A stretch of 64,000 nt of DNA, taken from positions 6,589,001 to 6,653,000 of the forward strand of contig NZ_BLPG01000001.1 in the NCBI RefSeq assembly GCF_011764445.1, given 5' to 3'. Made by a program: the position numbers and the translations under genes. Source of the DNA: Phytohabitans rumicis. GTDB lineage: Bacteria; Actinomycetota; Actinomycetes; Mycobacteriales; Micromonosporaceae. The stretch's first letter is position 1; each line of letters opens with the position of its first letter. This document shows positions 14,422 through 54,680 of the stretch, piece after piece. Below the pieces are notes generated by a model. The model did no database searches. It was not told the DNA's origin and saw only the letters and a program-made list of their open reading frames with translations.

Positions 14422-15222
14422 CTAAGCGGCGTCGGCCATGCGGCCGCGCAGCTTGGCTAGCGCCTTGGTCAGCAGGCGGGACACGTGCATCTGGGAGACG
14501 CCGATCTGGTCGGCGATCTGGCTCTGGGTGAGGTTGCCGTAGAAGCGCAGGAGCAGGATCTTCTGCTCGCGCGCGTCGAGGCTGGCCAGCGCCGGTCCGA
14601 GCGCGATCCGCAGCTCCGCGAGCTCGAACTCCGGGTCCGGCCCGCCCATGGTGTCGCCGAGTTCGGTGTCGCTGTCCGTGGATAGCGGTGCGGACAGCGA
14701 CGTGCTGTTGTAGGCGCGGGCGGCCTCCAGCCCTTCCAGGATCTGCTCCTCGGTGAGCCCCAGGTGGCCGGCGATGTCGGCGACGGTCGGTGAGCGGCCC
14801 AGCCGATGGGACAGGGTGCTGTTGGCCTCGGAGATGGCCAGCCGCAGCTCCTGTAGCCGGCGTGGCACGCGGATGTCCCACGTGCGATCCCGGAAGTGGC
14901 GCTTGAGCTCGCCGATGATCGTGGGGATGGCGAACCCGGCGAACTCGATGCCCCGCTGGGCGTCGAACCGGTCGACCGCCTTGATCAGCCCGACCATCGC
15001 GGTCTGGATCAGATCGTCGAGGGGTTCGCCGCGGCCGTGATAGCGGTGTGCCAGGTGCCGGGCCATGGGGGCGAACGCGGTGATCGTCCGCTCGCGCAGC
15101 GCGGGCCGGGACGGGTGGCGGGCGGGCAGCGCCGCCAGGGCGGCCAGTAGGTCGGCGCCGTCGTCGCGTGCCGCGTCTGTGCCGGCATCCGAGGTGGTCG
15201 AAGTAACGAGAGCGTGGGTCAC
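14422..15222 (-). CDS. RNA polymerase sigma factor, SigB/SigF/SigG subfamily
   Basis: This 266-aa sigma-70 factor has regions 2 (DDLIQTAMVGLIKAVDRFD and FAGFAIPTIIGELKRHFRD), 3 (ISEANSTLSHRLGRSPTVAD) and 4 (RIALGPALASLDAREQKILLLRFY and MHVSRLLTKALAKLRG). The AIPTIIGELKRHFRD pattern is diagnostic of the stress and sporulation SigB/SigF group. Such factors are usually held by an anti-sigma kinase, but none is encoded next door. The start follows GGGGAGACC. It lies convergent with the AbiEi/DUF559-like gene, 11 bp away. Confidence 0.93.
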   Translation of the reverse strand: MTHALVTSTTSDAGTDAARDDGADLLAALAALPARHPSRPALRERTITAFAPMARHLAHRYHGRGEPLDDLIQTAMVGLIKAVDRFDAQRGIEFAGFAIPTIIGELKRHFRDRTWDIRVPRRLQELRLAISEANSTLSHRLGRSPTVADIAGHLGLTEEQILEGLEAARAYNSTSLSAPLSTDSDTELGDTMGGPDPEFELAELRIALGPALASLDAREQKILLLRFYGNLTQSQIADQIGVSQMHVSRLLTKALAKLRGRMADAA

Positions 15223-15363
15223 GGTGGTCTCCCCTTGGTGGCGTCCCAGCGCCTCGGCAATATCGACTTACCTCACCGTAGCCCATTCGGCCGGCAGGGG
15301 ATAGCCGAAAGGATGAGTGCCTTAACGGTCAAAGTCGATGAAACCAGTACAGAACAACAAGGG

Positions 15364-22736: not shown

Positions 22737-24059
22737 ATGGGCAGCGGAAGCGCACCAGGCGCGAGCCGGATAGCCGTATGCTCCGCTGACCAGCTCCGTC
22801 GAGAGGCGCTGGCCGCCTATCTTGGCAGCCTGCCCGACTTTACGCTGGTTGGGCGGGTAGCCGACGGGCACAACCTGGTCCCGTTGGCGGAGCTGCAGCG
22901 TCCGGACATCGCATTGATCGATGGGGGGCACCGCCCAGGCGAAGCGGTGCCGACCCTCCGGCAACTCCGTGACCGGTTCGCGCTCATGCGGCTCGTCCTC
23001 GTCTACGAGCGGCTTTCCACCGAGGAGTTCACGGCGGTCCGCGAGTCGGGCGTCGCGGCGGTGGTGCCGTACGCGCACGGCCTCGGCGGCCTGCTGTCGG
23101 TGCTCCGGGCGCTCGCGACCGGCGTGCAGCCCAACGTGAACGGCCGCGGGCTCACCACCCGCCAGCGGGAGATCCTCCTGCTCGTCGCGTCCGGACACCA
23201 CGTCAGCGAGATCGCCGAGATGCTCGACATCAGCCCCGGCACGGTGGAAAACCACAAGCGTCGCGTGTACGCGAAGCTGAGCGCGACCAGCGCCGCGCAC
23301 GCCGTGGCGCGCGCCGCCTCGCTGGGCATCATCGACAGCTCCCCACCGGCCCGCGTGGCCCGCCCGAGCGAGGAGACGGCCGAGCCGGCCGGGCGATCGG
23401 TGCTCGCGGTGGCCGTGGGCCATCCCGGCCCCGTACTCGACCGCGTCGTTACCACGCTGATCGCGCACCGGCTCGCGGTCGTGCGCGAACACTGCCCGCA
23501 GGCGGTCGCTCAGGTGCACTGGCTGCGCTCGCACCGCGGGCCGGTGGTCCGCGTGCTTGTCAACCCGACCACCGACCAGTGGTGGATCGGCGCGACGCTG
23601 GGCTGGGCGGCCATCATGGTGCACGACGGCGTCGTCGACCAGCGCGGCATGGAGCAGGCGTTGACCCACGGGGTCCTCGCGGTCGTCCACGCCGAGCACG
23701 TCGAGCGGCAGCTCGTACCCGTGCTCAACCTGGCCGCCGCCGGTTACATGGTGATGGACCCGTCCGCCACCGGGCACTTCACCGACGCGATGTGGGCCAG
23801 GTCCGCGGAGCTGCCGTCGGTGGGGCCGAGCCTTACCGCCCGCGAGCACGACATCCTGCGGTCGATCGGCCACAACCACACGGTGCGGCAGACGGCGCGG
23901 ACGCTGGGCATCGCGATGAAGACGGTGGAGAACGCGCAGGGCCACCTCTTCCGCAAGCTCGGCGTGCACAACCGCGCCGCGGCACTGGCCAAGGCGTACG
24001 CCCTGGGCCTGCTGCAGCCGAACGACGCCCGCGCGGACGTGGTGCCGCGGCCGATCTGA
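22737..24059 (+). CDS. LuxR-type regulator with two receiver-like/HTH halves
   Basis: This 440-aa protein appears to be a head-to-tail double of a NarL/FixJ-type regulator. Half one has a receiver-like domain (residues about 10-130, RIAVCSADQLRREALAAYLG and PDIALIDGG) and a LuxR HTH starting near residue 139 (LTTRQREILLLVASG, TVENHKRRVYAKL). Half two has a degraded receiver-like domain (about 220-350) and another HTH starting near residue 366 (LTAREHDILRSIGHN, TVENAQGHLFRKL). Typical phospho-acceptor clusters are not obvious, so activation may not use phosphorylation. It precedes the putative biosynthetic island and ends at a strong bidirectional terminator. Confidence 0.8.
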   Translation: MGSGSAPGASRIAVCSADQLRREALAAYLGSLPDFTLVGRVADGHNLVPLAELQRPDIALIDGGHRPGEAVPTLRQLRDRFALMRLVLVYERLSTEEFTAVRESGVAAVVPYAHGLGGLLSVLRALATGVQPNVNGRGLTTRQREILLLVASGHHVSEIAEMLDISPGTVENHKRRVYAKLSATSAAHAVARAASLGIIDSSPPARVARPSEETAEPAGRSVLAVAVGHPGPVLDRVVTTLIAHRLAVVREHCPQAVAQVHWLRSHRGPVVRVLVNPTTDQWWIGATLGWAAIMVHDGVVDQRGMEQALTHGVLAVVHAEHVERQLVPVLNLAAAGYMVMDPSATGHFTDAMWARSAELPSVGPSLTAREHDILRSIGHNHTVRQTARTLGIAMKTVENAQGHLFRKLGVHNRAAALAKAYALGLLQPNDARADVVPRPI

Positions 24060-24060
24060 G

Positions 24061-24096
24061 CGGTCCGGGTCGCGGCGCTCACCGCGACCCGGACCG
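24061..24096. terminator. Bidirectional terminator hairpin
   Basis: A perfect 15-bp inverted repeat (24061-24075 and 24082-24096, arm CGGTCCGGGTCGCGG) with a 6-base loop sits between the convergent regulator and methyltransferase genes. It starts 2 bp after one stop and ends 11 bp before the other. Confidence 0.85.
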
Positions 24097-24107
24097 AGCC
24101 ACCGTCC

Positions 24108-24782
24108 TTAGTGGATTCGGGAGCAAACGCGCGCGGTCACCACGACACGGTCGCGGGGGCCGGACAGCGGACGGGTGTAGGTGTACGTCGTAAACGCCAC
24201 GTCGTCGAAGCCGGCCTCCCGGCACTGCTCCAGCAGATAGCCGGCGGAGAGCCAGTGCACCGGCACGCCCGGCGCCGGCTGCGTGTCCCGCCCCTCGCGG
24301 GTGCTGTCGTTGGAGATCACCAAGATGCCGTCCCGAGAGAGCCAATCGTGGATGTGTTTCAGGATCGGCACGAGACCCTCGTCCGGGTGGTAGATGTGGC
24401 CCAGCAGGCCGTCGGCGTACACGACGCCCCACTCGCCCGGCCGTGGCGCCCAGGTGCGGATGTCGGCGAGCTCGGCGCGTAGCCCCTTGCGCCGCGCGAT
24501 CTCCACCGCCCGGTCCAGGACGTCCACCGCGAGCACGTCGTACCCGGCGCGGGCGATCTCCGATTCCACCGCGGCATTGCCGCAGCCGACGCTGATCAGC
24601 CGCGGTGTTTCGGCCTGCTCCAGGACTCCGCGCAGGAATTCAATCATCCATTGCCGGTAAGGTGTGCTGTACGTCGATGGGGTTACGGAGTCGCCATTGG
24701 CTGCGCCGCCCTCCCAGATGTCGAACAGGCTCAGCTCATTGTCGCATAGGTAAAACGTACGCAACTGTGCGATGCTGGTCAT
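24108..24782 (-). CDS. Class I SAM-dependent methyltransferase
   Basis: This 224-aa protein has a Rossmann-fold methyltransferase core with motif I LISVGCGNAAVE (residues 62-73), the acidic end of beta-2 at LAVDVLD, and DIRTW further on. The family methylates small molecules; the acceptor is unknown. The N-terminal 50 residues (FYLCDNELSLFDIWEGG) form a cap that could bind substrate. It is transcribed towards the regulator gene, away from the transporter-phosphatase gene, across a 328-bp promoter region. Its setting beside redox and shikimate-type enzymes suggests tailoring of a secondary metabolite. Confidence 0.85.
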   Translation of the reverse strand: MTSIAQLRTFYLCDNELSLFDIWEGGAANGDSVTPSTYSTPYRQWMIEFLRGVLEQAETPRLISVGCGNAAVESEIARAGYDVLAVDVLDRAVEIARRKGLRAELADIRTWAPRPGEWGVVYADGLLGHIYHPDEGLVPILKHIHDWLSRDGILVISNDSTREGRDTQPAPGVPVHWLSAGYLLEQCREAGFDDVAFTTYTYTRPLSGPRDRVVVTARVCSRIH

Positions 24783-25110
24783 TTTTTCGCGCCTTTCCCC
24801 AGGATTTCTTTACTGAAACTAAGACGTCTGCAAACGAGACTGCCCCGGTCACCTCCAGGTGCGGAGCAGCGCGGATGGTCAGGGGTTATGCGGCAGGAGG
24901 CGAAGCGTAATTCGGCTCTCCGCACCTGCCAATCCCCCGGGGAACCGCCTAGTACGAAACCTCCCGGGGGTGGGGAAGGAGTACATGTGTGTGGCGCTGA
25001 GCGATTTTTTTTGCCGCTCAAGTTGCGGCCGATTGGGGCCCATGATAGGCCGGTCGAGTGCGGCAGGCGGCAATTGTTGTTCGCTATTCGTTCCTGGGGA
25101 GGCAACGGTT
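24783..25110. other. Divergent promoter region with hairpins
   Basis: No gene is evident in these 328 bp between divergent genes. I see an inverted repeat CCCCCGGG (24934-24941) and CCCGGGGG (24963-24970), and a short hairpin TGAGCG...CGCTCA around a run of eight T (about 24999-25021). GGGGAGG at 25096-25102 is placed 8 bases before a GTG at 25111. Promoters for both flanking genes must lie here. Confidence 0.5.
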
Positions 25111-26619
25111 GTGTTCATGACCCGCAAAGCTCAGATCGGCTCCGGCATGCTGGGGCTCGCTCTCGGCTATTTCCTCTGGTACACGCCCTACGCCGGGCTC
25201 ACGAAGGCGCTGTCCAGCGGGCTGCTGCCCGGGATGGACGACCGGGTCGGCGGCCTCGTGCTGCTGCCCGCGGCGGCGCTCGGCACGCTCGTCGGGTCGC
25301 TGGCCTTCCTGAGCGTGTCCGGCTGGTGGCGGTACGCCGGTCGCCGGACGGTCCGCGGCAGATCCCTGCCCTGGCCCGGCCGTACGACGGTGACGGCCGG
25401 CTTCTTCATGGCCCTTATCATCGCCACCACCACGCTGAACTACACGTTCGCCGGGGTGTCGATCCTCTTCATGCTGCTGATGATGCGTGGCGGCGTGCTC
25501 GTCCTCTCGCCGATCGTCGACGCGCTGCGCCGGCGCCGGGTCCGCGTCTACTCGTGGGCCGCCCTTGGGCTGAGCCTGCTGGCCGTCGTCACGGCGCTGG
25601 CCGACGTCAACAGCTACCACCTGACGGTCGCGGCGGTCCTGAGCCTGGCCATCTACCTGACCGGCTACATCGGACGGTTCGAGACCATGAGTCGGGTCGC
25701 GAAGACCGGCGATATCGAGGTGGACCGGCGCTATCTGGTGGAGGAGCAGATGTCCGCCGCGGTCTGGCAGGTCGGCCTCTGCGCGGTCCTCGCACTCATC
25801 GGCATCGGACCGTTCCTCGGCGCGCTGCGTGAGGGGTTCACGTCGTTCCTGCTCACCCCGGCGGTGCTGGGGGCGTTCGCGGTCGGCCTGCTCTACGAGG
25901 CGCTGTTCATCTACGGCACGCTGATCTACCTGGATCCGCGCGAGTACACATGGTGCGTACCCGCGAACCGGTGCGCCAGCCTGCTGTCCGGCCTCGTGGC
26001 GTCGTACGGGCTGGCCTGGCTGACCGGCATCGCCACGCCGGGTGCGGGGCAGTTGCTGGCTACCGCATTCATCGGCCTGGCCATACTCGCGCTGAGCTAT
26101 CCCGCGTTGCGCGCGGCCGTCCGCCGGCCGGCGGTGGTGGTGAGCCCGCGCCGGATCCTGTTCGTCTGCGGCGGCAACACCGGCCGTTCGGCGATGGCGG
26201 AGGCGATCGTCCGGGCCGAGGCGGCCAGCACGCTGGTGGCGCGCAGCGCCGGCCTGTCCGCCCGATCAGCCGGCGCGCCCATGGCCGAGCCGGCCGTCGA
26301 CGCGCTGCGCGAGCTCGGCGTGCCCGCCCATCGGCACCGGGCCCGGCAGCTCACCTGGGAGATGTGTCGGGACAGCGACGCCGTCTACTGCATGACGCAG
26401 GCGCAGCGGTCGGCCGTCGAACAGCTCGCCCCGGAGGCCAGCGGGCGGACGTACTGCCTGGACCCCGGGCAGGACATTCCCGATCCGGCGGCGTCGCCCG
26501 ATCCGCCCGTCGCCTACCAGCGGACCGCGCGCCTGATCCGTGGGCACGTGCGGACCCGGCTGCGGGAGCACCTCGTCGGGGTCGGCGCCGTCCAGGCTCA
26601 GCCGCAGGGCGGTGGCTGA
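25111..26619 (+). CDS. Multi-span DMT/EamA-like membrane protein fused to a low-molecular-weight protein tyrosine phosphatase
   Basis: Residues 1 to about 340 form about ten hydrophobic segments of the kind seen in DMT/EamA-like transporters (LMMRGGVLVLSPIVDALRRR). Residues from about 347 form a phosphatase domain with the P-loop VCGGNTGRSAMAE (Cys353, Arg359, Ser360) and the general-acid region DIPDP (Asp455, Asp458). The two parts are in one frame with no break. I chose the GTG at 25111, which has GGGGAGG 8 bases upstream; an ATG at 25117 is the alternative. The phosphatase would face the cytoplasm if the count of spans is even. The 3' end overlaps the convergent nitroreductase gene by 22 bp. 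Substrates are unknown. Confidence 0.8.
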   Translation: MFMTRKAQIGSGMLGLALGYFLWYTPYAGLTKALSSGLLPGMDDRVGGLVLLPAAALGTLVGSLAFLSVSGWWRYAGRRTVRGRSLPWPGRTTVTAGFFMALIIATTTLNYTFAGVSILFMLLMMRGGVLVLSPIVDALRRRRVRVYSWAALGLSLLAVVTALADVNSYHLTVAAVLSLAIYLTGYIGRFETMSRVAKTGDIEVDRRYLVEEQMSAAVWQVGLCAVLALIGIGPFLGALREGFTSFLLTPAVLGAFAVGLLYEALFIYGTLIYLDPREYTWCVPANRCASLLSGLVASYGLAWLTGIATPGAGQLLATAFIGLAILALSYPALRAAVRRPAVVVSPRRILFVCGGNTGRSAMAEAIVRAEAASTLVARSAGLSARSAGAPMAEPAVDALRELGVPAHRHRARQLTWEMCRDSDAVYCMTQAQRSAVEQLAPEASGRTYCLDPGQDIPDPAASPDPPVAYQRTARLIRGHVRTRLREHLVGVGAVQAQPQGGG

Positions 26620-27293
26620 TCGTGCCATTCGACGTACTCCGCCAGCACCGCACGCTCCGGCGCGAATCCGTTGACGCTGGCGGTCGGGTCCGGGTAGCCG
26701 ACCGCCAGCCCGCAGGCCACCAACCGGTCGCCGAGGCCCAACGCCCCGCGCAGCACGTCCGGATAGCCGGCGACACTATACTGTGGACAGCTGCCCAGGC
26801 CGCAGGCCACCAGGCCGAGCATGGTGTTCTGCAGGAAGAAGCCCAGCTCCAGAAACGTGCCGGCCGCCGCGTCGGCCGGCAGGTGGAAGATGAGCGCCGC
26901 GGGCGCGCCGTGGAAGTCGAGGTTGGCCCGCAGGTGCTCGCGGCGGCCCGCCTCGTCGTCGCGAGCGATGCCCAGCGCCCGCAGCAGGCCGGTGCCGGCG
27001 ATCCGGGCCCGTTCCCCGGTCACCGCGTCGATGGTGTCCGGCCGGTTGCGATAGTCCGGCCGCGGCGGCGCGCCCCGGTCGAACTCGGCCCGCAGCCGGC
27101 AAGCCAGGGCATCCCGCGCCGCGCCGGTCACCACCGCCACCCGCCACGGCTGCGCGTTGCGGGTCGAGGGCGCGTGCCCGGCGACCGCAAGCACCTGTTC
27201 CAGCACCTCGCGCGGCACCGGCCGGTCGAGGAAGGCGCGCTTGCAGTGGCGTGCGGTCGCGATCGCGGCGAACTGCGTCCAGATACGGTCCAC
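26598..27293 (-). CDS. Nitroreductase family flavoprotein
   Basis: This 231-aa protein has nitroreductase-family landmarks: an N-terminal arginine-rich FMN-contact region (ARHCKRAFLDRPVPREVLEQVL), APSTRNAQPWRVAVVTG near residue 40, and FFLQNTMLGLVACGLGSCPQYSVAG near residue 155. Such FMN enzymes reduce nitro groups or quinones with NAD(P)H, and some oxidise or dehydrogenate. It starts at GTG and runs opposite to its neighbours: it overlaps the transporter-phosphatase gene at its 3' end and is divergent from the dehydroquinase-fusion gene. Confidence 0.88.
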   Translation of the reverse strand: MDRIWTQFAAIATARHCKRAFLDRPVPREVLEQVLAVAGHAPSTRNAQPWRVAVVTGAARDALACRLRAEFDRGAPPRPDYRNRPDTIDAVTGERARIAGTGLLRALGIARDDEAGRREHLRANLDFHGAPAALIFHLPADAAAGTFLELGFFLQNTMLGLVACGLGSCPQYSVAGYPDVLRGALGLGDRLVACGLAVGYPDPTASVNGFAPERAVLAEYVEWHDQPPPCG

Positions 27294-27361
27294 AGCCTGC
27301 CAAGTCTTCGGGCACGGCGGCCGGCTGTCCAGTGGCTGATAACCCCCGGGGTGGTGCCGGC

Positions 27362-28785
27362 ATGACCGACGTGATCGCGACCCTGGCGGCGTGGCCAGCC
27401 GATCTGTCCACAGTGCCCGCCGGCGTCACCCACCTACAGGTACGCGCGGACCTGACCGGCGACCTCGCACCTGGGCCGCTGCGCCGCGGTGGCGTCCGCG
27501 GGCTGATCTACACGCTGCGCAGCCGCGCGTACGGGGGGCGCGCCGCCGACCCGCCGGAGGTGCGCCGGGCCCGGCTGGCCGCCGCCGTCGCCGCCGGATA
27601 CGACGTGGTCGACCTCGAGGCCGACCACGACCTCGATCCGGACCTGCTGGCCGCGGTGCCGGCGTCACGCCGGCGGATCTGCTGGCACGGCGGCGCGCTG
27701 CCGCTCGCCGGGCTGCGGGCGACGTTCGCGGCGATGGCGGCGGTGCCGGCCGCGAGTTACCTGCTGGCGTCGGCGGTGACGTCCGCCGAGGGCGCGCTCG
27801 TGCCGCTCCGGTTGCTCGGCGCACTGCGCCGCCGCGACGTCACCGCATACGGCGCCGGCTCAGCGGGTACGTGGAGCCGGCTACTCGCGCCGTGGTTGGG
27901 CGCCCCGGCGGTCACCGGCCAGCTGACCACAGTGGACGACGATGCCCCGGACGTCGCGCGACTCTGTGGCGACTACCCGTTTCCGCTGCTGTCCCCGCTA
28001 CGGGAGCTGTACGGCCTGGTCGGCCCGGTGGCGCGGACCTCCAACCTGATGCGCCAGCACAACCGCGCGTACGCCGAGCGCGGTGTGCCTGGACTGCTGC
28101 TCCCGTTCTACCTGCCGGGGCTCGGCGAGTTCCTCAGCGGGTTCTGGCCGGGCGTACCGGCGGGGCTCCGCGACCTGGGCCTGCCGGTACGTGGCCTGTG
28201 CGTCAGCGGGCCCTTGAAGGAGGCGGCACTGCACGTCGCGGAGGTGGCCAGCCCGGCGGCGCGGGCGGCCGGCGCCGCCAACGCCCTGGTCCGGCGCCGG
28301 GGCGGTGGCGGGCGGAGACGACGGACACGTCCGCCGTCGCGGCGGTGCTCCGGCGGGCTGACATCCCGCTGGCGCACCGCCCCGCCGCGGTGGTCGGCTG
28401 CGGCGGTGCCGGCCGGGCCGCCGCCGTGGCGCTCCGGGACGCCGGCGCCGACGTCACGATGGTGAACCGCACCGAGACCCGGGGCCGGCTGGCGGCCGAG
28501 CTGCTCGGCCTGCCGTTCGCGCCGCTGGACGGCTTCCGGCCCGCCGGCCCGGCGCTGGTCGTGCATGCCACCACCGTCCACAAGGGCCTGCCGTTCGCCC
28601 TCGACGACCTCGACGACGGGGCCGCCGTGCTGGACATGGTGTGCCCGGCGGACGGGCCGAGCGCGCTCGTCACGGCGGCCCGGCGGCGCGGCCTGCGCAC
28701 CGTCGACGGCCACCAGGTGCTCGCGGAGGAGTCGGAGCAGCAGTTCCGGCTGATGACCGGCCGGACGATGCCGGGGGTGAACTGA
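27362..28785 (+). CDS. Type I 3-dehydroquinate dehydratase-like / shikimate dehydrogenase fusion, frame interrupted
   Basis: The N-terminal ~230 residues align with type I dehydroquinase (HLQVRADL, LIYTLRSRAYGG, DVVDLE, WHGG with catalytic-type His109), but the Schiff-base lysine position is leucine (SYLLA, Leu134). The C-terminal half is shikimate dehydrogenase: SGPLKEA with the catalytic-type lysine, a TTD with the catalytic-type aspartate, and VVGCGGAGRA with VNRT for NADP(H). One G added to the G4 run at 28299-28302 joins the frames (…ALVRRRGRWRAE…), giving about 474 aa. Fusion of these domains is known from plants and some bacteria. Here the first domain may be inactive or repurposed. 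The next gene starts within its stop codon. Confidence 0.8.
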
Positions 28786-29581
28786 TGCGGACATCAGCGG
28801 TCCATGACCGGTGCCTGGACCACGCGGCGCTGCTCGGCTCCTGGCGCAACACGGACGGCTCCGGGGCGTGCGGCGCCTGGTGCTGACCGAGCGCGACGGG
28901 GCCTTGCGGCTGCGGGTCTTCGGCGCGGGCCGGCCCCGGCCGTACGACTGGGGCGAGATCGCGGCGGACGGCTACGCGACGGCGCCGACGTCCGCCGCCG
29001 CTTGGGCGTTCACCGCGGTCCATGACACCGGGCAGCGCAGCATGAAGCTCTTCGGGTACACGAAGGGCGGGTTGCTGGCGCTGACCTCGTACCACGCGTT
29101 CAACGGGGCGGGCTGGCCGCCGCCCTACTGGGCGCGGGAGTTCTTCCACCGCGACCTGGAGATGCCGGCGGACACGGCGACCGGAGGCCCTCGGGCCACG
29201 GGCCGGACCACGGCGCCGCTGGGGCCGTGGCAGCTCGACCCCTCGGCACTGGTCGGGATGTGGCGCAACGTCGATCCGGCCGCCACCCGGCTGGCCCGGG
29301 TACGGATCACCGAGCGCGCCGGCTATCTGGTGGTGCGCCCGCACGGTGTGTGGACGCCCCGCCGGCACGACTGGCACGAGACGGTCGGCAGCGCGTACGC
29401 CCATGACGTCCGCACCAGCGTGGCGGTCGCGTTCACAGCCTTCTTCGAGCTGTCCGTCGGCCGGGTGGACATGGTCGGGTACCTCGACCGGCGGCTGCTC
29501 ACCATCGAGACCGCGAGCGTTTTCGGGGACGGCAGCGGCCGGTATCCCTTCTACGTCCGCGAACACTTCTACCCGAGTTGA
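28785..29581 (+). CDS. Two-repeat 'WRN-DWGE-REFF' protein of unknown function (copy 1), frame interrupted
   Basis: I do not recognise this family. The protein (about 265 aa after correction) has two similar domains of about 110 residues. Each begins with a short helix and WRN (LLGSWRNTDG; LVGMWRNVDP), continues with beta-strand-like stretches and a D-W-[GH]-E motif (YDWGEI; HDWHET), and ends in R-E-F/H-F (WAREFFHRD; YVREHFYPS). It is a paralogue of the gene at 31337. The start ATG shares a base with the previous stop. One base added in the G4 run at 28863-28866 restores the frame. The pattern suggests a small beta-barrel; an enzyme or binding role in the island's pathway is inference. Confidence 0.75.
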
Positions 29582-29591
29582 GGGCTTCGCC

Positions 29592-30770
29592 ATGACAGTC
29601 GACATCGATAAGGCGGTGACCCAGGTCGCCGAGCTGGCCCGGGACCGCTTCGCCGACCGGGCCGGCGAGTACGACCGCGATGCCACCTTCCCCGCCGCCG
29701 ATCTGGACGACCTCTTCGCCGCCGGCCTCAACGCCCCGACCGTCCCGGTCGAGCACGGCGGGCTGGGACTGGGGCCACTGCGCGGCGACGCGTACCCGCT
29801 CTGGCTGATGACGACGGAGTTGGCCAAGGCCGACCTGTCGCTGGCCCGCTGCTGGGAAGGCCACACGAACTCGCTCGTGCTCCTCGACGCGTTCGCCACC
29901 GGCGAGCAGCGGGAGCGCTGGTTCGAGGGCGTGGTGCGGCGCGGCGAGAAGTGGGTGGCGTGGAGCGGTGAGCCGCAGGCGCCCAAGCCCGGCGAGGCGC
30001 GCCGCTTCGGGACGGCGGTGGCGCGCACCGCGGACGGGTGGGTGGTCGACGGGAGCAAGGCGTTCGCCACCAGCGCCACCGGCGCGGACTGGGCCATCCT
30101 GCTGGTGAGCCTGGCCGGCCCCGGCGGTGCGCGGCACGCGGCCGCCGGCGACAGCGTGCTGCTGCTCGCCTGCGACCTGCGGCACCCGTCGGTCACCGTG
30201 GACACCTCGTGGTGGGACCCGGTCGGCATGCGGGCGACGGCCAGCCACGTCGTCCACTTCGACCACACGCCGATCGAAGGCGCGTGGCAGCTCGGCGAGC
30301 CCGGTGACTACATCCGGCAGGGCTGGCAGTCGGCGTTCATCCCGCACTACGCGGCGAGCTTCCTCGGCGCGGCGCAGGCGGCATACGACTACGCCCTGCG
30401 GTACGTCGAACGGCAGGACAAGGGCGGGGACCCGTACGTCCAGCAGCGGGTCGGCGGCATGCTCGTCGCTCTGGACACCGCCCGGCTGTGGCTGGCGCAC
30501 GTGGCCCGGCTGTGGGACGAGGGGCACGCCGAGGAGGCGCGCCTCGCCGGCACCCGGGCCCGCCACGTCGTCGAGCACCTCGCGCTGTCCACCGTGGACC
30601 ACTGCATCCGTACGTGCGGCGCGCGCAGCCTGGTACGACCCAGCCCGGTCGAGCGGATCCTGCGCGACCTGACCTTCTACGTCCGGCACGACAACGACGA
30701 CCACATCCTGGCCACGATCGGGCGTGGAGCCCTGGGACGTCACCATGACGCGTCGTTCTTCAAGCCCTGA
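29592..30770 (+). CDS. Acyl-CoA dehydrogenase-fold flavoprotein (possible flavin-dependent monooxygenase)
   Basis: This 392-aa protein has the acyl-CoA dehydrogenase fold: a helical N-terminal part (LAKADLSLARCWEGHTNSL), a beta domain (WVVDGSKAFATSATGADWAILLV), and a C-terminal helical domain (YALRYVERQDKGGDPYVQQRVG). In specialised metabolism, relatives with this fold act as two-component flavin monooxygenases fed by a separate reductase, and the next gene encodes such a reductase, overlapping by 26 bp. The final segment (YVRHDNDDHILATIGRGALGR) resembles the C terminus of those oxygenases rather than of beta-oxidation enzymes. The choice of monooxygenase over dehydrogenase is inference. Confidence 0.8.
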   Translation: MTVDIDKAVTQVAELARDRFADRAGEYDRDATFPAADLDDLFAAGLNAPTVPVEHGGLGLGPLRGDAYPLWLMTTELAKADLSLARCWEGHTNSLVLLDAFATGEQRERWFEGVVRRGEKWVAWSGEPQAPKPGEARRFGTAVARTADGWVVDGSKAFATSATGADWAILLVSLAGPGGARHAAAGDSVLLLACDLRHPSVTVDTSWWDPVGMRATASHVVHFDHTPIEGAWQLGEPGDYIRQGWQSAFIPHYAASFLGAAQAAYDYALRYVERQDKGGDPYVQQRVGGMLVALDTARLWLAHVARLWDEGHAEEARLAGTRARHVVEHLALSTVDHCIRTCGARSLVRPSPVERILRDLTFYVRHDNDDHILATIGRGALGRHHDASFFKP

Positions 30771-31280
30771 GCTGCTGGCGGAGGCGGCCCGCTTCCGCGA
30801 CCTGATGGCCGGCTGGCCGACCGGGGTGGCCGTGGTGACCGGTACCGCGGCCGGACACCCGGTCGGCTGCACGGTGACCGCCGTCGCCTCGGTCTCGGCC
30901 GATCCTCCGCTGCTGCTGGTGTCACTGGCCGCCCGAAGCCGCACGCTGGAGGCGATCGAGCACGCCGGCCAGTTCGGGATATGCGTGCTGTCGGCGGCGC
31001 AACGTCGATTGGCCCAGACGTTCGCGACGGGTGAGCCGGCGCGGCGCTTCGCGGGTGTGCCGTTCCGATGGGTCCTCGGCGTGCCCGTGCTGCACGGCGC
31101 GATGACCGTGGCGGTGTGCGCCGTTCAGGAGGCGCTTCCGGTCGCCGACCACGTGATCGTCATGGGCGGGCCGCTCTGGCAGGCGGAGGATCACGCCGCC
31201 GCGCCGTTCATCTGGTTTCGGCGCGGCTACTGGGATCTGTGTCCCGCCGGGCCACCCCCGGGGGTTCTGGACGGTCCTAA
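30745..31280 (+). CDS. Flavin reductase family protein (C-terminal end frame-shifted)
   Basis: This protein of about 178 aa has the FMN-binding split-barrel pattern of flavin reductases: FRDLMAGWPTGVAVVTG, TVTAVASVSADPPLLLVSLA, and GQFGICVLSAAQ. It would supply reduced flavin to the acyl-CoA-dehydrogenase-fold partner whose gene it overlaps. After FIWFRRGYWDLCPAG the frame stays open into the next gene (to 31497). Adding one base at the C5-G5 run (31255-31264) gives a stop at 31278-31280 and a normal family length, so I place the end there. Confidence 0.82.
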
Positions 31281-31336
31281 GTCGACGCTTAACCGAATAA
31301 GATTCACATTGAAACACAACGATTTCAGGGGGCGGC
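31281..31336 (+). promoter_or_regulatory. AT-rich gap, probable promoter of the second repeat protein
   Basis: This 56-bp gap is far more AT-rich than its surroundings (ACCGAATAAGATTCACATTG and more) and ends in AGGGGG about 4-9 bases before the ATG at 31337. It probably starts a new transcript covering the second WRN-repeat gene and the oxidase. Box positions are not assigned. Confidence 0.4.
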
Positions 31337-32275
31337 ATGGCCACCACGCACACCACCGCAAAGTACCTCCGCGAAGTCGATCGGCTCCCCGACGGGGGGT
31401 CGGTCCGCATCGGACCGATCGATCTGAAGCCCCTCCTTGGCCTCTGGCGCAACGCCAACAGCCGCACCTGGGGAATCTCCACAGTGGAACTCGTTGAGCG
31501 CGACGGGCAGGTGCGGGCGCACGCCTGGGCCACCGACCCGCACGCTGGCGTGATCCGGGACTGGGGCGAGGTGCCCCTCGACGGCCTGTACGCCGACGGG
31601 CCGACGTCCAACAACGTGTGCGGCTACCGGGCGACGTTCGACCTCGGCCACGCCCGTACCCAGATCCAGGCCAACATGCTCCACAGCGTCATGGTGTGCG
31701 CCGCGTTCACCACGTTCACCGACGGCAGCGGGCGGGTGAACTACCTGTCCCGCGAGTTCCTGCACCGGCGCGGAGCGCAGTCGACGGACGATCTGCCGCC
31801 ACCGTCCGCATCGGACGACGACCCCGCGTGCGCCCGGGGCGACGACCGGCTGCCCATGCTCGCGGCCCCGATCGTGCCGGATCGGCTGCTGACCCGGTGG
31901 CGCAACACCGACGCGGCCACCAAGGGGATACCCGAGGTGAGCATCTCGCTCCGCGACGGACAGCCGTGCCTGCGGGTCACCGCCGCGGGACCGGATGGCC
32001 CCATCGACTGGGGTGAGGTGCCCATCACCCTCTACACCGACATCAGCGTCACCGGCGGCGGCCGCTCCGCGGCGGAGCCCGGGGCGCCGCACTACGCCGA
32101 CATCCGCGCCACCGACGGCGGACCCGCCTTCTTCGCCTCCTTCGACCACGGCTTCATGCGGGTGCACGTGCAGGCCCGGTTCAACATCGGCATCCTGCCG
32201 TTCGTGATTTTCAACGAGTTCCTCGACGACAGCGGACGGGCGGACTACTTCCAGCGCGAGGTGTTCGTCCGCTAG
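31337..32275 (+). CDS. Two-repeat 'WRN-DWGE-REFF' protein of unknown function (copy 2)
   Basis: This complete 312-aa paralogue of the protein at 28785 is not in any family I can name. Repeat one has WRN at 37-39, DWGEV at 75-79, and DGSGRVNYLSREFL at 129-142. Repeat two has WRN at 188-190, DWGEV at 224-228 and DDSGRADYFQREVF at 297-310. Between the landmarks are alternating hydrophobic strands, compatible with a beta-barrel per repeat. There is no signal peptide, so it should be cytoplasmic. A linker rich in Asp and Pro (about 148-172) separates the repeats. Position between the flavin reductase and the multicopper oxidase ties it to the island's chemistry. Confidence 0.8.
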   Translation: MATTHTTAKYLREVDRLPDGGSVRIGPIDLKPLLGLWRNANSRTWGISTVELVERDGQVRAHAWATDPHAGVIRDWGEVPLDGLYADGPTSNNVCGYRATFDLGHARTQIQANMLHSVMVCAAFTTFTDGSGRVNYLSREFLHRRGAQSTDDLPPPSASDDDPACARGDDRLPMLAAPIVPDRLLTRWRNTDAATKGIPEVSISLRDGQPCLRVTAAGPDGPIDWGEVPITLYTDISVTGGGRSAAEPGAPHYADIRATDGGPAFFASFDHGFMRVHVQARFNIGILPFVIFNEFLDDSGRADYFQREVFVR

Positions 32276-32359
32276 CACGGATCCACTGTGGACCCGGCGC
32301 GGTCGCCGGGCGATCGATGCTGCCCGAAAACCCCGACGAGGGAGAAGGAGTTGAGGCCC

Positions 32360-34536
32360 GTGACAACGAGGACCGCAAAGAGACCCGCGGTCGGCAGGGT
32401 GCGCGACGCGCTGGGCGTCGCGCTGCTGCTGACCGTGGGAGTGACCCTCTGGTGGTGGATCCTGCCACCGGACGTCCTGGCCGGCGGTGGCCGGACCGGA
32501 CCACGACAGATGTTGGTGACCGCGCTGCTGGCGCTGCCGCTGGCACTGCTGGCCGTCGGCGGCGCCGCCTGGCTGGCCCGCCGGCGCTGCTGGCACAACG
32601 GCGGATCCTGGCGCGTGCCGGCGCAGGCCGGCGCCACCGTCGGGCTCCTCGCCGTGCTCCTGCTGGCGACCGCACCGGTCCAGGGGGCCGCGCTCGACCG
32701 CTGGGCGCCCCGGCGATCGAGCCGAACCTGGCGGCGATCCAGTACAGCGACGCGTGCCCGGCCATCTACACCGCGGCGGAGTGCCGCGACCTCGAAGTCC
32801 AGATGGGCACGTTCGACGCCGACGCGGTCGCACAGGCCCACCACAAGATGATGAACACCACCGGCCATTCCGCGGAGGCGAGCGCGGCGATGAACGCGCC
32901 GTTCGACCCCAACGAGAAGGCCAGCCTGGGCGCGGACACTGTCGCCTACGCCGTGCAGGACGCGTTCATCGTGCTGCTGGTCGGTGCGCCGATCGCGTTC
33001 CTCGGCCTGTTCCTCGCGTCCCGGGCGCCCGTGCCGGTGCCGCGGCGCCGAATCAGGCCGGTCGGGGCCCGATCCCGCTGGGCCGCCGCGGGCAGCGCCC
33101 TCCTGCTGATCACCGTCGGCAACTTCGTCCTCTCGTCGGCGGCCCGCGCAGCCGTCGTGCCGTACAGCGTGCCGCTGCGGATCCCGCCCGTTCTGCAGGG
33201 TGCGGAGGTCACGCTCCAGATGCGGGAGGCCGACGTCCAGATCATGCCGACCGGGCCGCCCACCCGCATGTGGACGTACAACGGCATCTACCCGGGCCCG
33301 ACCATCCGGCGGCCGAGCGGCCAGACGAGCCGGATCAGCTTCCGCAACGACCTACCCGTCACCTTCGACAGGGCGACGATCCACCACCACGGCAGCCACT
33401 CCCGGCCCAGTGAGGACGGGCAGCCGAATGACTTCCTGATTCCGCGCGGCAGCGTGCGGACGTACACGTACGAGCACCTGGAGCGCGGCGAGCCGGAGTG
33501 GGCCGTCACGCAGTGGTACCACGACCACCGGATGGACGTCACCGGCCGGAACGTGTGGAACGGCCTGGCGGGCATGTTCATTCTCGATGACGCCTTCGAC
33601 TCCGCCCTGCCCCTGCCGAAGGGCGAATTCGACGTCCCGCTGGTCATCGCCGACAAGACCTTCGACGCCAACAACCAGATCCCCTACACGTTCAGCATCG
33701 TCGGCACGCTCGGCGACACGTGGCTGGTCAACGGCCGGCCGCAGCCGTACTTCGACGTCGGCGACCGCAAGTACCGGGTCCGGATCCTGAACGCCGCCAA
33801 CCGGCGCCCGCTCGTCCTGGCGCTCAGCAACGGGGCGCCGATGACCCAGATCGGCACCGACGCCGGATTGCTGCCGGCCCCGATCCAGCGCACGTCCATC
33901 ATCTTGCAGCCGGCCGAGCGGGTCGAGGTGGTCCTGGACTTCGCCGGTCTCCTCGGCCAGAACGTGGTCCTGATGGACACCAACACCCCCGCCACCCCCG
34001 GCAACCCGCCCAAGGAGCTCATGCAGTTCCGCGTCAACCGGGACCTCACCGAGACCAGTTCGGTACCGGCGACGCTGCGACCGGCTCCGACGTTCCCCAC
34101 TCCCACGAAGGACCGCCAGTTCGTCCTGCGGGCGGTGACCAACGCCGCCGGAACGCCGACACAGTGGACGATCAACAACCAGGCGTTCGACCCTAACCGG
34201 ATCGACGCTGACCCGGTGCTCAACTCCACCGAGCGCTGGACGTTCATGAACGTCTCGCCCCAGCCACACTCCATCCACCTGCACGACGTCGACTGGCAGT
34301 TGGTGAGCCGCTTCCAAGTGGTACTCGACGCCAGCGGGAACCCGACACAAGGGGCCGCGATCCCGGTCCAGCCCTACGAGTCCGCGCTGAAGGAGACCTT
34401 CTTCATCCCGGCGAACACGGGATTCTCGGTCCTCACCACGTTCACCGACCACCTCGGGCCGTACATGCTGCACTGCCACATGCTCGAGCATGAGGACATG
34501 GCCATGATGGCGCGCTTTGTAGTGAAGGCTTCCTGA
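32360..34536 (+). CDS. Membrane-anchored multicopper oxidase (bilirubin oxidase/CotA-like), frame interrupted
   Basis: After frame repair (one C in the C4 run at 32708-32711) this is about 725 aa. The N-terminal third has membrane segments (LGVALLLTVGVTLWWWI; MLVTALLALPLALLAVGGAA; a third and fourth near 32950-33150) and a Met/His-bearing stretch (AQAHHKMMNTTGHSAEASAAM). The rest is a three-domain multicopper oxidase with all four copper motifs: TIHHHG, WYHDHRMD, HSIHLHDVDW and HCHMLEHEDMAMM. Such enzymes couple phenols or aminophenols, or oxidise bilirubin-like compounds, outside the membrane. The GTG start has GGAGAAGGAG 9 bases upstream. A terminator follows the stop. Confidence 0.85.
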
Positions 34537-34546
34537 CCCTCCGCAA

Positions 34547-34580
34547 TGAAGAAGGGCACCTAGCCGGGTGCCCTTCTTCA
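34547..34580 (+). terminator. Terminator hairpin after the multicopper oxidase
   Basis: A perfect stem (34547-34560 with 34567-34580, arm TGAAGAAGGGCACC) has a 6-base loop and starts 10 bp after the oxidase stop. It separates the island from the AfsR-type regulator gene 18 bp further on, whose transcript must therefore start inside or after it. Confidence 0.85.
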
Positions 34581-34597
34581 CCCTACGATCAAGTCTC

Positions 34598-37447
34598 GTG
34601 CCGGACCTTTCGTACCGGGTCCTGGGCCCGCTGGAGGTGCTGGCGGGCGGTCACATGCTGCCCCTGGGCGGGCGGATGCCGCGCATCCTCCTCGGCACGC
34701 TCCTGCTCCAGCCCGGCCGGGTGGTCTCCACCGACGTGCTCGTCGACGTCCTCTGGCCGGCCGAGCCGCCGGCGTCCGCCGTGGCCAATCTCCGCACCTA
34801 CGTGCGCGGCCTCCGCAGCCGCCTGTCCGGCGACGCCATCATGACAAAACCGCACGGGTACGCCGTACGCGTCGACCCGGATGCGCTGGATCTGACCCTG
34901 TTCGAGGACCGGGCGGCGCGGGCGCGCCAGGCATGGCAGGGCGGCGACGCGGCCGGCGCGCTGCGGCTCCTGGAGGAGGCGATCGGCCTCTGGCGCGGGC
35001 GGCTGCTGGAAGACCTGCCGGGCAGCTCTGCGTGGGAGGCGGTGGCCAGCCGGCTGACCGCGCAAAAGACGTCGCTCGTCGAGCTGGCGATGGAGATTCG
35101 CATCGGGCTGGGCCAGCCCGACGTCGCCGCTGCCGAGCTGCGCGGGCTGCTGGCGGCAGACCCGCTACACGAGGGGTTCTGGCGCCGGCTGATGCTGGCC
35201 CTGCACGCGAGCGGGCGTACGGCCGAGGCGCTGCGGGCGTACGCGGACGCGCGGCAGGTCCTGGCCGACGAGTTGGGCGTGGAGCCCGGCCCACAGCTGC
35301 GCGCGGCGTTCGACACGGTCCTCGGCGCCACCCCGCCCGCCGCCGGGCCGATCTGCCAGCTGCCGTTGAATCCGCCCGACTTCACCGGCCGGTCCGCGCT
35401 GGTCGACAGCGTGGTGGCACACCTGACCGGCGGCCCGCAGCCGGCCCTGGTCGCCATCTCGGGCGCGCCGGGCGTGGGCAAGTCCGCGCTCGCCGTCCAC
35501 GCCGGACACGCCGTGCGCGGCTCGTTTCCGGACGGCCAGCTCTACGTCGACATGCGCGGCACCACCGAGGCGCCACGCGATCCGCGCGAAGTGCTGGCCG
35601 AGCTCCTGCGCGCGCTCGGTGTGTCCAATGTGGTCATTCCCGACGGTGTCGAGGCCCGTGCCGCGCTCCTGCGGTCCCGGCTGGCCGACGCCCGCATGCT
35701 GCTGGTGCTCGACGACGTCGCGCACGCCGGGCAGGTGCGGCCCCTGCTGCCCGGCGCCGGCGCCTGCGCGGTAGTGGCGACCAGTCGCCAGCGGCTGCCG
35801 GAGCTGACCGGCGCGCTCCAGGTCAATGTGGACGTCCTGACCGAGCAGGAGGCGCAGGAGCTATTCGGGCGGGTCGCCGGCCGGCGGCGGGTGGTCGAGC
35901 AGCCGGAGAGCGCCCGGGAAATCCTGCGTGCCTGCGGGCACCTGCCGCTCGCCGTCCGGATCGCCGGTGCCAAGCTGGCCCAGCGGCCGGGCTGGTCGCT
36001 GTCCGTGCTCGCCGACCGGCTCCGCCTCGAACGGCACCGCCTCGACGAGCTGCGCGCGGGCGACCTGGCCGTACGCGCCAGCGTCGAGTTGAGCTACCGG
36101 CTACTGCCGCCAGCAGCCGCTCGCGCGTTCCGGCTGCTCGGCACGCTCGGTCCTGGCCCGGTGCCGGCGTGGGTGGTGTCCGCGCTCATCGGGTCCGACT
36201 CGGAGGACACCGTGGACGTCCTCGTGGACGCCAACCTGCTGCAGCTCGTCGGGATGGACGTCGCCGGCCAGGCCCGCTACCGGCTGCACGATCTGCTGCG
36301 CTGTTACGGGGTCGAACGCGCCGACGAGGAAGGATCGCTCGAACGGCGGGCCGCCACGGTCCGCGTACTCGATGGGTGGTTGGCTCTGGCGGCGCAGGCC
36401 CGGGACCGGATGCCGGTGCATTTCTTCGGTGCGTCCTTCGCGCCGCCGCAGGCGGCGTTCGACGGCGCGGAGCGGCTGGTGGCCGATCCGATGGCCTGGT
36501 TCGAGGCGGAGCGGGCCGCGCTGGTGTCGGCGGTTGAGTTGGCCTCACTGTCCGGCTTGGACGGTCACGCGTGGCGGATCGCAGCGGCGCTGGCGCCGTT
36601 CTTCGACCTGCGTTCGCATCGCGACGTGTGGTGGCGCACCCACCAGATTGGACTGTCGTGCGCCCGTCGGGTGGGCGACGCGCACGGCGAGGCGATCCTG
36701 CTGCGCGACATCGGGCAGCTGCATCTTTACCACGACCGGTACGACGAGGCGGCCGCCGCGTTCGACGCTTCGCGGGAGCTCTTCGTGCGGGCCGGCGACG
36801 AGGCAGGGGAGGCGCTGGCGCTGTGCGGGCAGGGCACCGTGCACCGGGTCAAGGGGCGGCATCACCGGGCACTGCGGCTGTACCGGCGCGGGCTGGACGC
36901 GTTCACGCGCGGCGGTGACCGGGCCAACCAGGCCGTGGTGTCCGGCTCGATCGGGCTGGTCCACCTGGCGCTGCGCCGGCGCGACGAGGCGCAGCGTTGG
37001 CTGACCACGGCCTACGAGATGGCCGTCGAGATCGGCGACCGGCACCGCGAGGCCAATGCGCTGCACCACCTGGCGATGCTGCGGCAGGAGTGGGGGCGGC
37101 CGGATCGCGCGCAGGTGGAGCTGGATCGGGCGCTGGCCCTGCTGGAGGAGTTGGGCGACGACGCGTGTGCGGCGTACGTGCGGCAGAGCATCGGCGAGCT
37201 GCACCTGCGGTTCGGGGATCCGCGGCGGGCCGGGGCGTTTCTGACCGACTCGCTCAGCGTGTTGCAGCGCATGGGCGACCGGCGCGCCGAGGCCACGATC
37301 GCGGCGTTGCTGGGGGAGTGGCACGACGCGGCCGGCCGCACCCGCCCGGCGCAGGAGTACCTGACGCGGGCGCTGGACACGTGGCGCGAGTTGGAGGCGC
37401 CCGGCCCGGCGGCCGCGGTCGCCGCCCGCCTGCGCGCGCTCGGCTAG
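34598..37447 (+). CDS. AfsR/SARP family transcriptional regulator with NB-ARC and TPR domains
   Basis: This 949-aa protein has an OmpR-type DNA-binding domain (about residues 1-95, YRVLGPLEVLAGG), a BTAD domain (about 100-245), an NB-ARC ATPase domain with Walker A GAPGVGKSA (residues 289-297) and Walker B-like LLVLDDVA, and C-terminal TPR repeats (about 650-930). AfsR-type SARPs activate secondary-metabolite genes by binding direct repeats of 7 bp at 11-bp spacing. I chose the GTG at 34598 because a longer frame would begin inside the terminator stem. No Shine-Dalgarno is clear, so it may be leaderless. It is a natural candidate regulator of the 24-34 kb island. Confidence 0.92.
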   Translation: MPDLSYRVLGPLEVLAGGHMLPLGGRMPRILLGTLLLQPGRVVSTDVLVDVLWPAEPPASAVANLRTYVRGLRSRLSGDAIMTKPHGYAVRVDPDALDLTLFEDRAARARQAWQGGDAAGALRLLEEAIGLWRGRLLEDLPGSSAWEAVASRLTAQKTSLVELAMEIRIGLGQPDVAAAELRGLLAADPLHEGFWRRLMLALHASGRTAEALRAYADARQVLADELGVEPGPQLRAAFDTVLGATPPAAGPICQLPLNPPDFTGRSALVDSVVAHLTGGPQPALVAISGAPGVGKSALAVHAGHAVRGSFPDGQLYVDMRGTTEAPRDPREVLAELLRALGVSNVVIPDGVEARAALLRSRLADARMLLVLDDVAHAGQVRPLLPGAGACAVVATSRQRLPELTGALQVNVDVLTEQEAQELFGRVAGRRRVVEQPESAREILRACGHLPLAVRIAGAKLAQRPGWSLSVLADRLRLERHRLDELRAGDLAVRASVELSYRLLPPAAARAFRLLGTLGPGPVPAWVVSALIGSDSEDTVDVLVDANLLQLVGMDVAGQARYRLHDLLRCYGVERADEEGSLERRAATVRVLDGWLALAAQARDRMPVHFFGASFAPPQAAFDGAERLVADPMAWFEAERAALVSAVELASLSGLDGHAWRIAAALAPFFDLRSHRDVWWRTHQIGLSCARRVGDAHGEAILLRDIGQLHLYHDRYDEAAAAFDASRELFVRAGDEAGEALALCGQGTVHRVKGRHHRALRLYRRGLDAFTRGGDRANQAVVSGSIGLVHLALRRRDEAQRWLTTAYEMAVEIGDRHREANALHHLAMLRQEWGRPDRAQVELDRALALLEELGDDACAAYVRQSIGELHLRFGDPRRAGAFLTDSLSVLQRMGDRRAEATIAALLGEWHDAAGRTRPAQEYLTRALDTWRELEAPGPAAAVAARLRALG

Positions 37448-48836: not shown

Positions 48837-48858
48837 CGGTCCTCCTCCGTACAAACAC

Positions 48859-49838: not shown

Positions 49839-50165
49839 GGCTCGACCCTAACCGCGACTATGACTACTATGGGTCCACAGGCGACTACGTTGAGTTTCAA
49901 GGCTTCTGTTGCGTGGACGGCGGTCCAAGGACCCCTCTCAGCCGAACGGATGAGGTAGTCACACGCCCTCGGGCGCGCATCTACTTGTGGACATATCTAA
50001 CCTCATGTCATGACTTCATGGGCATACCCGACATGCCGGTCTAGCGAGGTTCGCGCCTCGGCTCAACCGCCTGTCGTGGAGTGCCCGAATAGTTAGCCTG
50101 GCAAAGTGGTGAGCGTCACAAAATCACTGTGGGTAATCGCCCGTGAAGCTGCCTAGCCTCGCTGG
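49839..50165. other. Divergent intergenic region with small palindromes
   Basis: These 327 bp separate the adenosine deaminase gene and a cell-wall protein gene. I see no gene or RNA. Short dyads are GTCATGAC near 50008-50015, GGCAT/ATGCC at 50021-50025 and 50033-50037, and GTGA-GCG-TCAC at 50109-50119, about 47 bp before the ATG. The last resembles half-sites of CRP-type regulators and may be a binding site. Confidence 0.4.
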
Positions 50166-54610: not shown

Positions 54611-54680
54611 CCGGATTCCTCCCCAGGTTCCGGCCATCATGCCAGGAATGGGTTACATCCGCCGGTCGCGCGAGATGGAA

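Follow-up and report, generated by a model that had tools for sequence, protein, structure and literature searches.

A rare family of paired, predicted calycin-type domains that may serve an acyl-CoA-dehydrogenase-fold flavoprotein

We analysed a 64,000-nucleotide stretch of the genome of the actinomycete Phytohabitans rumicis (contig NZ_BLPG01000001.1, positions 6,589,001 to 6,653,000 of the forward strand; hereafter the window, in whose own coordinates features are given), where two genes, WRN1 and WRN2, encode paralogous proteins built from a duplicated domain. In our best explanation, which we hold at a probability of about 0.6, WRN is an undescribed family of paired cytoplasmic calycin-type barrels serving a flavin monooxygenase of the acyl-CoA dehydrogenase (ACAD) fold in a rare small-molecule pathway. 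This explanation draws on prediction and comparison, namely the predicted fold, a Trp/Arg signature, the pairing of the domains, their co-occurrence with the flavoprotein in two phyla, a core gene set, and the loss of the Schiff-base lysine from a neighbouring dehydroquinase/shikimate-dehydrogenase-like (AroDE-like) fusion. The fold itself is known; we found no description of the WRN sequence family, of the pairing of its domains or of their coupling to the flavoprotein in the libraries or open-access literature that we searched, and a search of that literature (main texts only) returned nothing describing this cluster, as judged by title or start of abstract. The WRN genes and their domains are located as follows.

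28785-29581, forward strand: WRN1, two predicted calycin-like domains, the first frameshifted near 28857-28864.
29234-29578, forward strand: WRN1 domain 2, from alignments and profile search.
31337-32275, forward strand: WRN2, an intact open reading frame (ORF) of 312 amino acids with two predicted calycin-like domains.
31421-31789, forward strand: WRN2 domain 1; the piece 31409-31771 was modelled with AlphaFold2 and has eight strands.
31880-32272, forward strand: WRN2 domain 2, with an insert in mid-domain, from alignments and profile search.

WRN1 and WRN2 each carry two copies of a domain of about 115 residues. A profile of 12 domain rows, all from outside the genus of the window organism, matched both WRN2 (200 bits, E 5e-61) and that part of WRN1 which is open (167.5 bits, E 6e-51), and none of 1000 shuffled WRN2 controls reached E 10 or better with the same profile. 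When WRN2 was searched against its own genome at E 1, the only other matches were the two halves of WRN1. The two genes and the duplicated unit reported in a preliminary description of this DNA are therefore real; its single WRN1 gene at 28785-29581, however, is not one frame, as the frame of 28785 holds the first WRN motif and that of 28808-29578 all that follows; the break falls within about 28857-28864. The sequence landmarks of that description were also borne out: W, N and R are present in all 19 domain copies, and the D and the W of the D-W pair each in 17, while 16 of the 19 retain G-x-W and 15 have the E. Its author had not recognised the domain, nor did any model of the Pfam, NCBIfam, PHROGs and PADLOC libraries match it. 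None of 17 WRN domains hit a Pfam family even at E 5, hence none matched the avidin profile, and sequence-profile searches of the Protein Data Bank (PDB) gave no match (best E 0.87).

The AlphaFold2 model of WRN2 domain 1, built from five alignment rows (window and locus L012 only), is all-beta with eight strands and no helix, at a mean predicted local distance difference test (pLDDT) score of 91.7 and a predicted template-modelling (pTM) score of 0.83. Calycins are antiparallel up-and-down barrels of 8-10 strands and about 110-160 residues, with a first-strand G-x-W and a last-strand Arg as their signature. In the model W13 falls within strand 11-15 and R115 within strand 112-120, and both the strand count and the Trp/Arg signature thus agree with a calycin in this prediction from five sequences. 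Because the calycin signature has just these residues at these places, the WRN and REF landmarks of the preliminary description are probably structural. Among the best 50 of 1289 Foldseek matches in the PDB were UnaG (E 5e-4), myelin P2 and other fatty-acid-binding proteins (FABPs), lipocalins and agroavidin; the best template-modelling (TM) scores, 0.59/0.61 at a root-mean-square deviation (rmsd) of 4.0, were those of a streptavidin monomer, 4jnj_A. Of these 50, 48 are FABP-, avidin- or lipocalin-type by title, the other two being a viral spike complex and a putative monosaccharide-binding protein, class unchecked. Against a viral library Foldseek gave nothing below E 0.001, with a Pithovirus "avidin family protein" ranking seventh. 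From the model we infer that the WRN domain forms a closed barrel; this undescribed sequence family probably has a fold of the ligand-binding type. The domain would thus resemble streptavidin and avidin, FABPs including UnaG, and lipocalins in its eight modelled strands, its G-x-W in strand A, its last-strand Arg and its best structural matches, whereas it differs from them in its paired arrangement, its place in a biosynthetic operon and its want of any Pfam or PDB-sequence match. The G-x-W-x-N motif presumably echoes the avidin family. The preliminary suggestion of a binding or cyclase-type partner is in keeping with the fold predicted for one repeat, which is calycin-like.

The domain is rare. 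Carriers were found among actinomycetes (G000, the window's own genome; G103, a sister species; G054, G660 and G1042) and on cyanobacterial plasmids of Nostoc and Gloeothece. In the family sample, WRN occurs in 3 of 300 genomes once one weak match is dropped; the order sample gave 1 of 397, the class sample 2 of 394, the family of G660 2 of 140, and the plasmids 2 of 72,556. These genome samples overlap and contain G000 where the group fits; the genome searches score part of the first-look candidates, the cyanobacterial carriers come from the plasmid search, and all carrier counts are lower bounds. A single Gloeothece WRN used as query found no match in 50,697 phages, and a contig scan of low sensitivity with two narrow peptide patterns found one locus, on the same metagenome-assembled genome (MAG) contig as G054. 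One candidate carrier, G005, was rejected: its match (E 2e-4) covered 93 query residues with two stops, and the profile search of G005 gave none.

In all seven carriers the domains occur in twos, either fused (WRN1 and WRN2 of G000 and G103; WRN2 of G054) or as neighbouring single-domain genes (one pair each in G660, G1042 and Nostoc, two pairs in Gloeothece). In a tree of the domains, the first and second cyanobacterial members group separately (support 84/95 for the first and 100/99 for the second), as do WRN2 domain 1 (96/95) and WRN2 domain 2 (100/99); deeper branches are weak. The preliminary description had set co-occurrence with the neighbouring enzymes beforehand as the test on which its interpretation could fall, and the ACAD-fold flavoprotein was present in 7/7 WRN carriers, at the same locus in 6/7. 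Searched in its own right, the flavoprotein was found at E 1e-60 in the same 3 of 300 family genomes as WRN, in 3 of 394 genomes of the class sample (the two WRN carriers and G665), and at E 1e-40 in exactly the two WRN-carrying plasmids among the 72,556. With the window's own genome left out and relatedness ignored, the chance of such overlap is 2e-5 for the family, 0.005 for the class and 4e-10 for the plasmids.

The WRN genes lie in a block common to the window and G103 (about 22737-34536), whose other features, together with the gene that follows, are listed below.

22737-24059, forward strand: regulator with two LuxR-type helix-turn-helix (HTH) regions (Pfam GerE, two stretches); homologues in the G103 and G054 clusters; accessory.
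24108-24782, reverse strand: S-adenosylmethionine (SAM) methyltransferase (Pfam Methyltransf_23, E 3e-12); homologues in the G103, G054 and Gloeothece clusters; accessory.
24859-26619, forward strand: membrane-phosphatase protein, a multi-pass membrane region with a low-molecular-weight phosphotyrosine phosphatase domain (Pfam LMWPc, E 2e-18).
26598-27293, reverse strand: nitroreductase-fold flavoprotein (Pfam Nitroreductase, E 2e-23; nearest solved structure NfnB 2wzv, E 2e-35).
27362-28785, forward strand: AroDE-like fusion of a dehydroquinase-like and a shikimate-dehydrogenase-like half (Pfam, NCBIfam, alignment of the G103 homologue with 2gpt); frameshifted.
29592-30770, forward strand: ACAD-fold flavoprotein (Pfam Acyl-CoA_dh domains, PDB alignments); core.
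30745-31497, forward strand: flavin reductase (Pfam Flavin_Reduct, E 4e-31).
32351-34536, forward strand: multicopper oxidase with N-terminal hydrophobic segments (Pfam Cu-oxidase_2/3; G103 homologue); frameshifted; accessory.
34568-37447, directly after the shared block: AfsR-type regulator.

For the six neighbouring enzymes, Pfam and NCBIfam agree with the identities first proposed (AroDE fusion, ACAD-fold protein, flavin reductase, multicopper oxidase, nitroreductase and methyltransferase). Homology of the membrane-phosphatase to G103, whose homologue has nine hydrophobic segments, begins at about 25108. That of the flavin reductase stops near 31224, and the tail of its ORF (about 270 bases) overlaps the start of WRN2 in another frame; the true end of this ORF may also be disturbed.

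The flavoprotein has the N-terminal, middle and C-terminal domains of the ACAD fold (Pfam E 1e-13 to 3e-9). In the alignment with 1ukw, the catalytic Glu faces an Asp; this Glu is the catalytic residue of acyl-CoA dehydrogenases and is absent in two-component flavin monooxygenases. Among solved structures, 5z8t/5gj7 come closest (E 5e-29, about 105 bits); a search of the open-access literature for their PDB codes found no paper. True dehydrogenases follow, with DszC and the nitrososynthases ranking further down. Since a flavin reductase gene adjoins the flavoprotein gene in the window, a two-component flavin monooxygenase is the natural reading of this sequence. It would resemble DszC, the nitrososynthases KijD3/DnmZ and, by fold, 5gj7/5z8t in fold, in the Glu-to-Asp change and in the adjoining reductase gene, while differing in its distance from the nearest solved relative and in forming a rare subfamily that travels with WRN. 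Flavin_Reduct homologues are present in G000, G103 and G054, and an annotated NADPH-FMN reductase in Gloeothece; here and below, comparisons of gene content cover the stretches read around each locus (29 kb for G1042 and 20 kb for G665). No flavin reductase homologue was found in those of G660, G1042, G665 or Nostoc, and the nitroreductase, if present, might serve the flavoprotein in G660, G1042 and G665.

The AroDE-like fusion, represented by the G103 protein, aligns with the plant bifunctional enzyme 2gpt over 450 residues (E 2e-25). It shares with this plant-type enzyme the domain order, the long alignment and, by eye, the Lys, Asn and Asp of the shikimate dehydrogenase half, and it differs in lacking the Schiff-base lysine of type I dehydroquinase, opposite which the G103 protein has a Pro. 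By eye, the G054, G660, G665 and window sequences likewise have no Lys at this stretch. Lys and Asp are the catalytic residues of shikimate dehydrogenase; as judged by eye, both are kept in G000, G103, G054 and G660, while G665 has the Lys and an Asn for the Asp. Because the window's genome holds three other aroE-like genes (none above the curated cut-off), the fusion is probably not the housekeeping enzyme.

Comparison of the relatives points to a core actinomycete set consisting of the membrane-phosphatase, the nitroreductase, the AroDE-like fusion, a WRN pair and the flavoprotein. All five actinomycete clusters with WRN have the membrane-phosphatase (51-77% identity; E below 1e-130 in G103, G054, G660 and G1042), and the nitroreductase is clear in G103, G054 and G1042, with only a 185-residue match at 36-37% identity in G660. 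G1042 has the genes in the order membrane-phosphatase (8646-10079), nitroreductase, AroDE-like, WRN, WRN and flavoprotein, with no further cluster homologue in the stretch read save a 55-residue HTH match; the order in G660 is the same, its nitroreductase match being partial. G054 carries the core genes (with one fused WRN pair) in another order, along with a flavin reductase, a methyltransferase, a LuxR-type regulator, a sulfotransferase and a P450. Gloeothece has four WRN genes, a short-chain dehydrogenase/reductase (SDR), a methyltransferase (40% identical), the flavoprotein (54%), the FMN reductase, a multicopper oxidase (33%) and a luciferase-like monooxygenase (LLM)-type oxidoreductase. 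WRN with the flavoprotein thus appears as the firmest part common to actinomycetes and cyanobacteria. The gene set first proposed for the cluster stood for the flavoprotein, the AroDE-like fusion and the nitroreductase as an actinomycete core, but not for the oxidase, methyltransferase, flavin reductase and LuxR-type gene, no homologues of which were found in the G660 and G1042 stretches apart from the HTH match. Of the flanking AfsR and LuxR regulators it had named, both types are present (GerE in the LuxR-type), but the stretches searched in the relatives yielded no AfsR homologue, and the AfsR gene is probably a mere neighbour of the cluster. Collectively, the observation made in the preliminary description was confirmed, and its interpretation was supported in part, though not as to an aromatic product. 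In G665 (locus L032, 8361-11018), an AroDE-like/flavoprotein pair was seen, with no WRN, membrane-phosphatase or nitroreductase homologue in the stretch read.

On this basis we infer the following steps, including the monooxygenase step and its product. The dehydrogenase half of the AroDE-like fusion would reduce a cyclohexane-type keto acid, which the dead dehydroquinase half would no longer dehydrate. The flavoprotein would then oxygenate the reduced acid, with the flavin reductase or the nitroreductase supplying its reduced flavin, and the two WRN barrels would bind the reactive product, either shielding it or steering its next, non-redox step. The membrane-phosphatase protein may export or dephosphorylate the product, and a methyltransferase, oxidase, P450 or sulfotransferase may decorate it in some species.

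Several observations weigh against this explanation. The structural support from Foldseek is modest, with one match below E 0.001, TM scores mostly 0.4-0.6 and rmsd values of 4 to 14 Å; the top match stands at 13.5 Å, most of the best 50 of 1289 matches show TM 0.4-0.5 at an rmsd over 6 Å, and the full-length WRN2 prediction (two-row alignment) reached a pLDDT of 43. A 19-residue hydropathy scan, the one method applied, found no hydrophobic segment in WRN2, in WRN1 of G103, or in the first WRN protein of Gloeothece and of Nostoc; the same scan also overlooked the likely signal of the Gloeothece oxidase, so a cytoplasmic location of WRN is not firm. In Nostoc, the WRN pair and the flavoprotein gene are about 242 kb apart. 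G665 has the AroDE-like/flavoprotein pair and no WRN match, indicating that the flavoprotein can do without WRN. Finally, no homologues of the AroDE-like fusion, nitroreductase or membrane-phosphatase were found in the Gloeothece and Nostoc stretches read, and the pathway around the common part may therefore differ in cyanobacteria.

Among other explanations, we regard self-protection as a serious possibility that we nevertheless doubt: the barrels would only bind a finished toxic product tightly, away from the producer's targets. The predicted calycin-type fold, the presence of up to four domain copies per cluster and the existence of G665 without WRN are all consistent with it; on the other hand, WRN2 domains 1 and 2 share only 37% identity, a better fit to two roles than to one binder, and nothing indicates a toxic product.

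It is unlikely that the barrel instead catalyses a ring closure or rearrangement in the manner of PyrI4 and AbyU, cyclases that have a barrel fold. The invariant N and R, together with D in 17 and E in 15 of the 19 copies, would suit a catalyst, and the published accounts of PyrI4, AbyU and AbnU, as judged by title or start of abstract, place such barrel proteins in actinomycete biosynthetic clusters. However, Pfam scans of the cluster proteins and of 20 further ORFs, out of 53 listed for the window, found no polyketide or peptide synthase domain to supply a substrate, none of the best 50 of 1289 Foldseek matches is named as such a cyclase, and WRN differs from these systems in being paired with a flavin monooxygenase.

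The frameshifts could also be real and the locus in decay in the window organism, which we consider improbable. Three broken genes do lie within one 7-kb stretch: besides WRN1, the AroDE-like gene has a break within about 28247-28299, and the oxidase gene one within about 32708-32715. In G103, by contrast, all three are intact, while that genome has breaks of its own in the flavoprotein and LuxR genes (locus L009, 3444-4744 and 10275-11470). As G103 is thus intact in three genes and broken in two others, the breaks point to assembly errors in both genomes; moreover, WRN2 is intact and conserved, and the breaks fall in G/C-rich stretches, as sequencing errors often do. Both assemblies look error-prone in such stretches.

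A very unlikely alternative is that N-hydroxylation turns an opine-type imino acid into an amavadin-like vanadium or iron ligand, with the barrels binding the ligand or its complex. This idea arises from Nostoc sp. UHCC 0926, on whose plasmid pn1 the WRN pair follows an octopine-dehydrogenase-family gene within a vanadium-nitrogenase locus (locus L022, 13489-16951), with a 56-residue remnant of a TonB receptor (16784-16951) 1 kb past the pair, and where the flavoprotein gene sits beside TonB receptor and ferric-siderophore-type transporter genes. We give it little weight because only one of three plasmids with vnfD carries WRN and the other clusters are without these genes: no octopine dehydrogenase, receptor or transporter homologue was found in the window, G103, G054, G660, G1042, G665 or Gloeothece stretches, Gloeothece having phosphate-type ABC genes only. 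An open-access literature search found no paper on amavadin biosynthesis, by title or start of abstract. A link to vanadium nitrogenase was lowered on the same count of plasmids, with PMC6645180 and PMC4284476 consulted.

Dirigent barrels work with laccases. Least probable of all is that the WRN barrels steer radical coupling by the multicopper oxidase in this way, since, although the oxidase gene adjoins WRN in G000 and G103 and lies near it in Gloeothece, the stretches read of G054, G660 and G1042 yielded no oxidase homologue, so that the oxidase is not core, and the G103 oxidase has hydrophobic segments and the Gloeothece oxidase a twin-arginine-like start (by eye), neither of which appears in the four scanned WRN proteins, so that barrel and oxidase are expected to occupy different compartments.

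Some further observations concern the surroundings. In the window, a second AfsR-type regulator gene (51881-54652) encodes a protein 35% identical to that at 34568-37447, and a single open frame at 47925-49847 joins an adenosine-deaminase-family half to a PAC2-family half, as a fusion or as run-together genes. The Nostoc stretch L022 13489-16951 is flanked by tungstate/vanadate-type transporter genes and a nifE-like gene, and the same locus holds a vnfDG fusion (3596-5905) in which KEAAPQVQ-type repeats form a long linker joining the D part to the G part. In the second Nostoc stretch (locus L024, 4795-30692), the flavoprotein orthologue (14995-16215) comes after the TonB receptor and ferric-siderophore-type transporter genes; further on are O-methyltransferase-like, TauD-family and peptide-synthetase-like genes (assigned by eye, with receptor and TauD from Pfam). 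Homologues of the cluster methyltransferase were also seen on a Yersinia frederiksenii plasmid (locus L030, 8163-15368) and in Nonomuraea (locus L031), with no WRN domain in the stretches read; the genes listed near it in Yersinia encode, among others, another methyltransferase, an ATP-grasp protein, a diaminopimelate decarboxylase and an aminotransferase.

In summary, our analysis favours the reading of WRN as paired barrels that serve the flavoprotein. A sequence that could not be read before can now be tested as a probable barrel of the ligand-binding type, linked in two phyla to a single probable monooxygenase. Going further is speculative, and we doubt this extension more than we believe it: the WRN pair might be a new class of cofactor-free biosynthetic partner that fixes the fate of an unstable monooxygenase product, marking a small-molecule pathway free of polyketide and peptide synthases, whose centre in actinomycetes is a shikimate-type dehydrogenase carrying a dead dehydroquinase half, and whose WRN/monooxygenase part is common to cyanobacteria, probably by horizontal transfer. 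The G1042 set, from membrane-phosphatase to flavoprotein, spans about 6 kb and is small enough for whole expression in Streptomyces. Judging from gene content, the WRN profile would give a sequence handle on a type of cluster that synthase-keyed tools would likely overlook.

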